From contig JANQHK010000127.1 in NCBI GenBank assembly GCA_028282685.1, positions 1 through 64,000 on the forward strand: a DNA stretch of 64,000 nt. Reading direction: 5' to 3'. The notes under the pieces are model-generated. The model was not told the DNA's origin and did not search any database. It saw nothing but the letters and a program-made list of their open reading frames with translations. The position numbers were made by a program, and so were the translations under genes. The DNA comes from Phycisphaeraceae bacterium (lineage in GTDB: Bacteria > Planctomycetota > Phycisphaerae > Phycisphaerales > Zrk34). Positions 32,425-64,000 of the stretch are shown in pieces. Numbering within the stretch: the stretch's first letter is position 1; every line of letters starts with the position of its first letter.

Positions 32425-32880
32425 GTGCCGAATTTGATGACTGTGCTCAAACAGGAGATCCGACGATTGGCGCGCAGCGAAGCGCGCAGCGAAACCGGGG
32501 TGCTCAAGCGTAGCAGCGCGCAGCACCGTCGCGATATTGCCGCGCTGAAACGCGAGGTGGCACAGCTTCAGAAGAAGGTGGCGTTCCTTGAAAGGCAGGA
32601 GCGTCAGCGCGTCAGCCGGCCGGCCAACCAAGTCAGCGAAGCGCAGGCCGATTCCGTGCGTTTCTCCGCCGCTTGGCTGCGCAAGCACCGGACCAAGCTC
32701 GGGCTCTCGGCGCACGATTATGCCAAACTCGCCGGCGTCAGTGCCCAGTCGATTTACCACTGGGAACAGGAAAAGAGTCGGCCTCGCCAGTCCCAGGTCG
32801 CCGCGCTGGCTGCGATACGAGGTCTGGGCAAGCGCGAAGCGCTGCAACGCCTGGAAGTGCTCGAAGGCCAGAGTGCTTGA
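32425..32880 (+). CDS. XRE-family HTH protein with N-terminal coiled coil
   Basis: The 151-residue product starts MPNLMTVLKQEIRRLARSEA (GTG start preceded by GGAG). A charged coiled coil spans residues 25-65 (DIAALKREVAQLQKKVAFLE). An XRE-type helix-turn-helix lies at 78-125 (LRKHRTKLGLSAHDYAKLAG VSAQSIYHWEQEKSRP), then a short helical tail. This MPNLMTVLK...HTH arrangement recurs in Planctomycetota and Proteobacteria. Its targets are unknown. It has its own promoter, leader hairpin and terminator. Confidence 0.82.
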   Translation: MPNLMTVLKQEIRRLARSEARSETGVLKRSSAQHRRDIAALKREVAQLQKKVAFLERQERQRVSRPANQVSEAQADSVRFSAAWLRKHRTKLGLSAHDYAKLAGVSAQSIYHWEQEKSRPRQSQVAALAAIRGLGKREALQRLEVLEGQSA

Positions 32881-32905: not shown

Positions 32906-32938
32906 AAAACACCCCTGCGATGGCAGGGGTGTTTTTTC
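32906..32938. terminator. Bidirectional terminator between XRE and mscS genes
   Basis: A stem of at least 10 bp (ACACCCCTGC/GCAGGGGTGT) with GATG loop has A runs before and T runs after. It can terminate both converging transcripts. Confidence 0.9.
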
Positions 32939-43855: not shown

Positions 43856-44161
43856 ATGCAGATCGACCTGGCGGATCGCAGTTGGCGTCTGGAATCGACC
43901 GACATGCCCATCGCGGCGGGCGGTGAGCAATGGACCGGCTGGGCCGACTTCGATCGTCGGGTGCTCTACATCTGGCGCGGCGCCGATCAACCGTTGGTCA
44001 CGCTGTGCCGCCTGGTGGATCGCCTGATGAACGATCCGCGGATGCGCAACAACCAACTGCCGGCGGCGGGCCTGCGATTGACCGAGCCGGACGAGCAAGG
44101 CCGACGCTACGTCATCCGCTTTTACGATTCGCCGGAGGCGCCTGACTTTTCGGCGGATTGA
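43856..44161 (+). CDS. Small conserved-looking protein, unknown function
   Basis: The 101-residue product (MQIDLADRSWRLESTDMPIA, then YIWRGADQPLVTLCRLVDRL) is a compact alpha/beta chain without signal or membrane segments. No family recognised. Its 3' end overlaps the convergent XRE-like gene by 50 bases. Confidence 0.6.
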   Translation: MQIDLADRSWRLESTDMPIAAGGEQWTGWADFDRRVLYIWRGADQPLVTLCRLVDRLMNDPRMRNNQLPAAGLRLTEPDEQGRRYVIRFYDSPEAPDFSAD

Positions 44162-44555: not shown

Positions 44556-44624
44556 TCAACCGCCGTGCGGCGGTGAAAACAATCGCGCGTGGGCGATCCA
44601 ACAAAAAAATTACCCCGGATTCCC

Positions 44625-44653
44625 TTGCAACAACGCGAGTTCGTATTTATAAT
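44625..44653 (+). promoter_or_regulatory. Near-consensus promoter of the candidate small RNA
   Basis: TTGCAA and a perfect TATAAT with exactly 17 bases between. The -10 overlaps a CGTATT-TAT-AATACG inverted repeat (44642-44656), a possible operator. Confidence 0.7.
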
Positions 44654-44659
44654 ACGTTC

Positions 44660-44847
44660 ATGAGTAATTAAAATTACACTCCCGGGGCGTCCCGTGACGA
44701 CCATTCGGTGTTGGGGACGGCTGGCCTCAGGGCACTTAATGCCGACGGGCGCCCACTGAGCGTGGGCGGTGGGGATAAAACCAGAGGCCCATTGTACCCC
44801 CGGAGCCGGGGGGCACGTCGTGTCACACGGTGTCCCCCGGTCTTTTT
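44660..44847 (+). ncRNA. Candidate structured small RNA, family unknown
   Basis: About 188 bases from the predicted start to a terminator. Helices seen: GGCCTC (44733-44738) with GAGGCC (44784-44789) enclosing GGCA-CTTAA-TGCC and CGCCCAC-TGAG-CGTGGGCG, i.e. a three-way junction. I see no open reading frame of useful length and no match to the conserved words of 4.5S RNA, RNase P RNA, tmRNA or common riboswitches. The size is near that of 6S RNA, but its characteristic central bubble is not established. Alternatively it is an attenuated leader. Confidence 0.5.
44806..44847 (+). terminator. Terminator of the candidate small RNA
   Basis: An 11-bp stem with one G-U pair (CCGGGGGGCAC / GGTGTCCCCCGG) is followed by TCTTTTT. 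No protein gene precedes it on this strand within 600 bases. Confidence 0.75.
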
Positions 44848-44980
44848 ACAGGCAATGGGTCAATTTGCAGAAGACGGCCGCCGTCTCGCCCGCCGTGGTT
44901 GTTTTCCAGCCGAACGGCCGTGCGAATGAAAAAAGCCATGCCCGCTGTTTCGGCTCGTCTCGGGCTTAATTGCACATGGG

Positions 44981-45008
44981 TTGACCGGATCGAGCGGATC
45001 GGTATCCT
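44981..45008 (+). promoter_or_regulatory. Probable rpsR promoter
   Basis: TTGACC and TATCCT are separated by 16 bases, about 65 bases before the rpsR start. A short CCCC-ACATC-GGGG hairpin lies in the leader. Confidence 0.5.
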
Positions 45009-45073
45009 GTGGAGCCGATACATTAACCCCCGTCGCCCCACATCGGGGCTGCAAGCCATGACGGAGATTTACC

Positions 45074-45313
45074 ATGAGTCGATTCGGACGTTTCTCGGGC
45101 CCGCCGGTTAAGGTCATCAGCACCAGTTCCTCGGGCGTTCCGTTTGTCGATTACCGCGATTCCGATTCGCTGCGCCGCATGATGAGCCCCAACGGCAAGA
45201 TTCTCGGCCGCAAGCGCACCGGCCTCAGCGCCGCCGACCAGCGCAAACTCGCCCAGGCCATCAAACGGGCGCGTTACATGTCGCTGTTGCCGTACACCTC
45301 AGCGACGCTTTGA
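45074..45313 (+). CDS. rpsR: Ribosomal protein bS18
   Basis: The 79-residue product has the S18 core: VDYRDSDSLRRMMSPNGKIL then GRKRTGLSAADQRKLAQAIK, RARYMSLLPY. It is a small-subunit platform protein that pairs with S6. It stands alone here, not with rpsF, ssb or rplI. GGAG precedes the ATG and a terminator follows. Confidence 0.9.
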   Translation: MSRFGRFSGPPVKVISTSSSGVPFVDYRDSDSLRRMMSPNGKILGRKRTGLSAADQRKLAQAIKRARYMSLLPYTSATL

Positions 45314-62817: not shown

Positions 62818-62846
62818 TTGGCATATTTGTTTTCGCAAGGTATATT
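62818..62846 (+). promoter_or_regulatory. rpsB promoter
   Basis: TTGGCA and TATATT are separated by exactly 17 bases. The start near 62853 gives a leader of about 174 bases. Confidence 0.7.
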
Positions 62847-62852
62847 ATTTGG

Positions 62853-63026
62853 CTCCGATCCGGGTCGGGATCGGCGGTTTTGGGGCGGCGTTCGCCCTGT
62901 GACCGATTTTCACCGGTCGTCGAATGGTTCGACGGCCCATTGCACACCGCCCCAAGCGCCCCTGTGCGAGTGCGGATCGACCCGCCGCAAACGCCGGTGC
63001 CGCTGAACGAGCGAGGATTCCCCATC
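62853..63026 (+). promoter_or_regulatory. Structured rpsB leader
   Basis: A 9-bp helix TTGGGGCGG (62880-62888) / CCGCCCCAA (62947-62955) encloses GACCG/CGGTC (62901-62905 / 62914-62918) and GTCGAA-TGG-TTCGAC (62919-62933). An upstream CCGATCC/GGATCGG hairpin follows the start site. This may be an S2 autoregulatory leader; the inference rests on structure only. Confidence 0.5.

Positions 63027-64000
<974 letters not shown>

Follow-up and report, generated by a model that had tools for sequence, protein, structure and literature searches.

The interval between the gene of an XRE-like helix-turn-helix protein and rpsR in a Phycisphaeraceae bacterium (genome of 2.94 Mb in 157 contigs) raises the question of whether the promoter and the terminator located there enclose a gene for a small RNA or belong to the control regions of the neighbouring genes. 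The window analyzed here is a stretch of 64,000 nucleotides (64 kb) of one contig. A lineage-specific orphan intergenic small-RNA gene appears to be the best explanation, to which, judging from the sequence, we would give a slightly better than even chance. A candidate small RNA had been put forward in the original prediction; of that proposal the short non-coding unit, lying outside the known Rfam families and probably distinct from the rpsR leader, was retained, whereas the predicted junction gave weak support. As a candidate it is sound but ordinary, i.e., its elements are real, its fold is unremarkable and its homologue was not found in the genomes searched. The coordinates of the features are collected in Table 1.

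Table 1. Features of the region from the XRE-like gene to rpsR (positions in the window).
Feature	Position	Strand	Remarks
XRE-like helix-turn-helix protein, 147 aa	44112..44555	-	divergent from the candidate; coding score 0.34
Sigma-70-type promoter TTGCAA-17-TATAAT	44625..44653	+	10/12 consensus match
Palindrome CGTATT-TAT-AATACG over the -10 box	44642..44656		candidate operator; perfect 6-bp arms
Predicted small RNA, ~187 nt	44661..44847	+	promoter to terminator; non-coding score; homologue not found in the genomes searched
Palindrome GTAATT-AA-AATTAC past the expected start	44664..44677		second candidate operator, or RNA 5' hairpin
Outer closing stem P1	44679-44687 with 44797-44805	+	in the minimum-energy fold; pair probability 0.3-0.4 in the full transcript
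Hairpin 1	44688..44719	+	pair probability 0.97-1.0
Stem 2 (GGCCTC/GAGGCC)	44723..44789	+	pair probability 0.87-0.96; encloses hairpins 2a and 2b
Hairpin 2a	44731-44743	+	pair probability 0.63-0.64, moderate
Hairpin 2b	44750-44768	+	pair probability 0.93-0.99
Alternative hairpin CCCCCG-GAGC-CGGGGG	44797..44812	+	predicted to break P1 and the 5' arm of the terminator during transcription
Intrinsic terminator	44806..44847	+	hairpin 44806-44840 (11 outer + 4 inner bp), T5 44843-44847
Separate rpsR promoter-like site TTGACC-16-TATCCT	44981..45008	+	9/12
Conserved rpsR leader CCGTC-hairpin-TGCAAGCCAT-GACGG-AG	45030..45066	+	masks the Shine-Dalgarno sequence; neighbour, not candidate
rpsR, ribosomal protein bS18	45074..45313	+	PF01084, E 4e-19

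The support for a small-RNA gene comes from the promoter and the terminator, each of which stands at the top of its distribution in the window, the two being placed in the right order. The promoter TTGCAA-17-TATAAT was found as originally described and is among only four promoter-like sites with at least 10/12 matches on both strands of the 64 kb (two per strand); the RNA start predicted from it lies at about 44660. The 11-bp terminator with a T run, also claimed from the outset, was confirmed. Of the 48 hairpin-plus-T4 sites that the window contains (27 on the plus strand and 21 on the minus strand), no other is as stable as this one (-27.7 kcal/mol), whose hairpin reaches a z-score of -4.06 against shuffled sequences. 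This terminator was missed by a simple consensus scan, which returned 5 terminator-like sites in 5.5 kb versus 5.6 in shuffles. From the expected start to the end at 44847 the unit measures about 187 nt, practically the approximately 188 enclosed bases that had been claimed.

The fold of the predicted RNA adds less to the argument. The whole unit gave a z-score of -2.99, only 1 of 300 shuffled sequences being as stable, and it is the terminator hairpin that carries this signal; when 160 windows of 187 nt were sampled across the 64 kb, 5 had z-scores of -2.9 or lower. When the terminator was left out, the junction fold was no better than chance (z = -1.90; its stability was equalled by 19 of 300 shuffled sequences). 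The three-way junction of the original prediction is present in the minimum-energy fold, but it is not significant without the terminator and its outer stem is of low probability (Table 1); as support for an RNA gene the junction carries little weight. Elsewhere in the 64 kb, the 187-nt windows at 32801, 35601 and 18001 fold more significantly (z = -5.1, -4.5 and -4.1, respectively, with 20 shuffles each), and strong hairpin-T sites are located near 32932 on the plus strand and near 32909 on the minus strand.

Comparison with known RNA families agreed with the claim that the region belongs to none of them. At gathering thresholds, the Rfam scan of the whole window returned one tRNA only and no match for the candidate; a permissive scan of positions 44560-44900 gave nothing below E 0.13, and no known leader was matched. 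The best permissive match (19.5 bits) was Xoo2 sRNA (RF02241), in which, as in the candidate, a first hairpin precedes a terminator hairpin with a T run; at E 0.13 and with the gathering threshold of 45 bits, the candidate is not a member of this family. 6S RNA (RF00013), likewise a self-contained unit of similar length, was rejected, as the candidate had no match to it up to E 10, and the 6S RNA of this genome lies on another contig (G000:C128:10106-10291, 69.2 bits). More generally, intergenic terminator-ended bacterial small RNAs form the class sought by tools such as sRNAscanner (PMC2916834). The candidate resembles this class in having its own promoter-like site, a non-coding unit shorter than 200 nt, an intrinsic terminator and an intergenic position, and differs from it in that no homologue was found, the family genomes searched yielded no Hfq and the RNA is predicted from the sequence alone.

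Homologues were sought at several levels of relatedness. The family set comprised eight further genomes and the genome of the candidate itself, and no other species of its genus was among the relatives searched. With positions 44600-44860 as the query, blastn matched 1 of 61 genomes, namely its own. With E values up to 1, matches appeared in 6 of the 9 family genomes, all of them short apart from the locus itself; the best two in other genomes (G008 and G001) were read as chance rather than as homologues, since both flanks look protein-coding and only a short stretch is common. Two further weak matches within its own genome, of 19 and 16 nt, are chance-like as well. A mobile or repeated element was rejected, the genome containing only repeats of chance length and the flanks sharing a single pair of 13-mers as their sole direct repeat. 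A covariance model was built from the candidate sequence together with its fold. Among 201 genomes of the order it hit two, the candidate's own and G038, the E value of the latter (0.037) being one that chance would yield over so many genomes. Relaxed filters gave hits in 2 of the 9 family genomes, the second (G006) at E 0.27; this match and another one in the candidate's own genome (contig C41, E 4.9) were deemed chance, like that in G038, on the E-value alone. Because a single-sequence model has little power, a homologue that has diverged far may have escaped it. Phage records gave no match to the candidate, plasmid records gave one match of 13% at E 0.8, taken as chance, and no exact 25-mer of the candidate occurred in viral contigs.

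The alternative that survives best, which we consider unlikely but worth serious weighing, is that the transcript is short and functionless. According to it, the promoter would belong to the region controlling the XRE-like gene, with its symmetric -10 box firing both ways, and the terminator would only shield rpsR from read-through. The lack of conservation and the insignificance of the fold without the terminator are consistent with such a transcript; as a homologue was found nowhere among the sequences searched, the RNA cannot be shown to be under selection. The symmetry of the promoter points in the same direction, as the palindrome over the -10 box yields an overlapping minus-strand promoter site of 8/12; on the minus strand, the search for a promoter of the XRE-like gene gave nothing above 8/12. 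On the other hand, the promoter on the plus strand is better than that on the minus strand, and a terminator ranking first of 48 is more than insulation requires.

The relation of the candidate to rpsR was judged from the region following the terminator, in which rpsR has a promoter-like site of its own. Sites of at least 8/12 stand 88-120 nt before rpsR in 20 of 30 loci, the one in the window included, whereas in 60 rounds of shuffling this held for 2.3 loci on average and 6 at maximum; the named rpsR relatives belong mostly to Phycisphaerales, Phycisphaeraceae or other Planctomycetota. The distance from the terminator end to the rpsR start, 226 nt, is similar to the whole upstream gap in two family genomes, L100 and L104 (185 and 219 nt, respectively), where a different co-directed gene lies upstream of rpsR. 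Considering its own promoter-like site with counterparts in relatives, rpsR most likely forms a transcription unit of its own, and since it has its own leader too, the candidate is probably not the rpsR leader; this was rejected as its main reading.

For similar reasons we regard as quite improbable an attenuator or riboswitch-like leader of rpsR, in which P1, an anti-terminator (44797-44812) and the terminator would be mutually exclusive and a ligand would decide on read-through. The predicted folding of the growing chain is compatible with such a device: four segments can pair alternately, from P1 through the anti-terminator to the terminator, and the hairpin 44797-44812 is dominant with transcript ends at 44812-44825 and gone at 44840. 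However, this hairpin is not significant, being equalled in stability in 273 of 3000 shuffles, no Rfam riboswitch family matched the candidate, the candidate element is absent from relatives which keep the rpsR leader, and both the promoter-like site and the conserved leader of rpsR are located past the terminator.

There is little likelihood, in our estimate, that the elements are arranged by chance and not transcribed as a unit. The 10/12 promoter is a mere consensus match and the region was singled out by a reader seeking such units, but the joint occurrence of promoter and terminator is rare: at a spacing of 60-350 nt, only two such pairs exist on both strands of the 64-kb window, the second one at 62818/62907. 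This other pair is situated inside the long leader (62818-63028, plus strand) of an rpsB-like gene, named by eye and starting at about 63028, and is possibly part of an S2 leader. An mRNA for a tiny protein is very unlikely. The sole plus-strand ORF of at least 20 aa wholly inside the candidate is a 21-codon GTG frame (44694-44759) with GGGG a few bases ahead of the GTG; its start is covered by a G+C-rich hairpin, relatives were not found among the genomes searched, and the coding scores of all six frames (-0.32 to -0.52) are far under those of real ORFs (+0.35 +/- 0.20), in keeping with the initial statement that the interval holds no notable reading frame. Least credible of all would be a newly arisen two-part cassette, in which one symmetric promoter palindrome would drive an XRE-like repressor and, in the opposite direction, an RNA; the latter would serve as a ligand-sensing attenuator upstream of rpsR and the S18 leader as a second layer of control.

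The preferred reading, an orphan small-RNA gene, involves a neighbour which is itself nearly an orphan. The XRE-like protein showed weak Pfam matches to HTH_50, HTH_31 and HTH_26, each below the cut-off; of 61 genomes, two gave matches to it, one being its own and the other showing a partial match at 35%, and no relatives were detected in a further set of genome contigs. At 44112-44161 its gene, on the minus strand, converges with a plus-strand ORF of 101 aa without a Pfam match, the overlap being at most 50 bases. In eight relatives, ORFs upstream of rpsR were compared with the proteins of the window, and no match emerged. Since the XRE-like gene and the candidate occupy the place of other genes in relatives, the arrangement looks like a local, lineage-specific one.

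Were the small-RNA gene functional, RNA polymerase would start near 44660 at TTGCAA-17-TATAAT and produce a G+C-rich, well-folded RNA of about 187 nt, stopping at the 44847 terminator before the separate rpsR promoter. The XRE-like protein probably regulates this promoter via the palindromes at the -10 box and just downstream of it. The second palindrome, perfect like the first one, lies at about +4 to +17; when the 45-bp stretch around the promoter was shuffled, two non-overlapping palindromes of that size arose in 0.4% of cases, the test being post hoc. The RNA probably acts in trans without Hfq, its partner being either an mRNA or a protein. Dependence on Hfq is unlikely, since Hfq was found in none of the 9 family genomes, the organism's own included; of the control genomes, 5 of 14 matched.

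As a check, the original prediction had suggested looking for covariance in the interval from the XRE-like gene to rpsR. Covariation does exist there; it was found, however, in the rpsR leader at 45030-45066 and not in the candidate. Of 49 rpsR loci (at least two pairs of which represent one genome from two collections), 43 carry the NACGGA word and 6 do not; 35 leaders were parsed with both stems (33 of them distinct), 5 with P1 of the leader only and 3 without it. In the alignment of 17 leaders, picked out of the 33 distinct ones because their hairpins are of similar length, pairing is seen in 97.3% of 187 cells and 6 of 11 pairs display double changes, the covariation value being 0.301 versus 0.085 in shuffled alignments (0 of 500) and not above 0.088 when slid. 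An earlier MAFFT alignment of 31 leader sequences revealed no more than 4 pairs, of which one showed a double change. The loop on the 3' side ends with CCA and one more base, followed by GACGG which merges into the Shine-Dalgarno GGAG; all but one of the 33 distinct parsed leaders retain the CC of this bulge, and in most of them the bulge is CCA.

A covariance model of the leader (R2), which gives 43.8 bits on 45030-45066, matched 46 of 294 genomes of the phylum at E <= 0.1. Within the order, 10 of the 15 genomes listed matched, each match adjoining rpsR. Outside the order 36 genomes matched, and in none of 20 of these loci tested by tblastn was S18 or S6 found; among the genomes listed from other orders of the same class, 0 of 7 matched. 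Nor did R2 match any of 20 rpsF loci of relatives, and rpsF and rpsR are on different contigs in this genome. Rfam gave no match on 45030-45066, where the overlapping Mu-gpT-DE scores 11.7 of 49 bits. In three family genomes (L078, L085 and L088), rpsF is preceded by CGTTCGG-hairpin-CCGAACG and then AAGGAG, ~80-20 bases before the Pfam match, and so, as judged from these motifs, seems to have a leader distinct from that of rpsR, to which R2 gave no match.

By its form, the element at 45030-45066 resembles the S6:S18 leader, which was described as having a conserved CCG bulge between stem and hairpin and standing before rpsF (PMC10931766; PMC4647458). Common to both are a covarying stem, a hairpin, a 3' bulge with a conserved CC and the Shine-Dalgarno sequence within the stem. 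In contrast to the S6:S18 leader, the element stands before a solo rpsR, with rpsF elsewhere, its bulge is CCA and not CCG, and its type was found in this order only, at the sensitivity used. A paper on 20 newer ribosomal protein leaders gives an S6:S18 motif for Chlorobi, and planctomycetes are unmentioned in its main text (PMC7247131). Our literature search, which covered sources other than the taxon lists of Matelska 2013 and Fu 2014, returned nothing relevant on an rpsR leader in Planctomycetes; neither was a study of small RNAs found for this planctomycete group.

Taken together, the candidate, if transcribed, would be an orphan small RNA of a planctomycete family whose 9 searched genomes yielded no Hfq. 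The rpsR leader may matter more than this candidate, as an S6:S18-type leader standing before rpsR apart from rpsF would allow one to test if the S6:S18 pair controls S18 alone.
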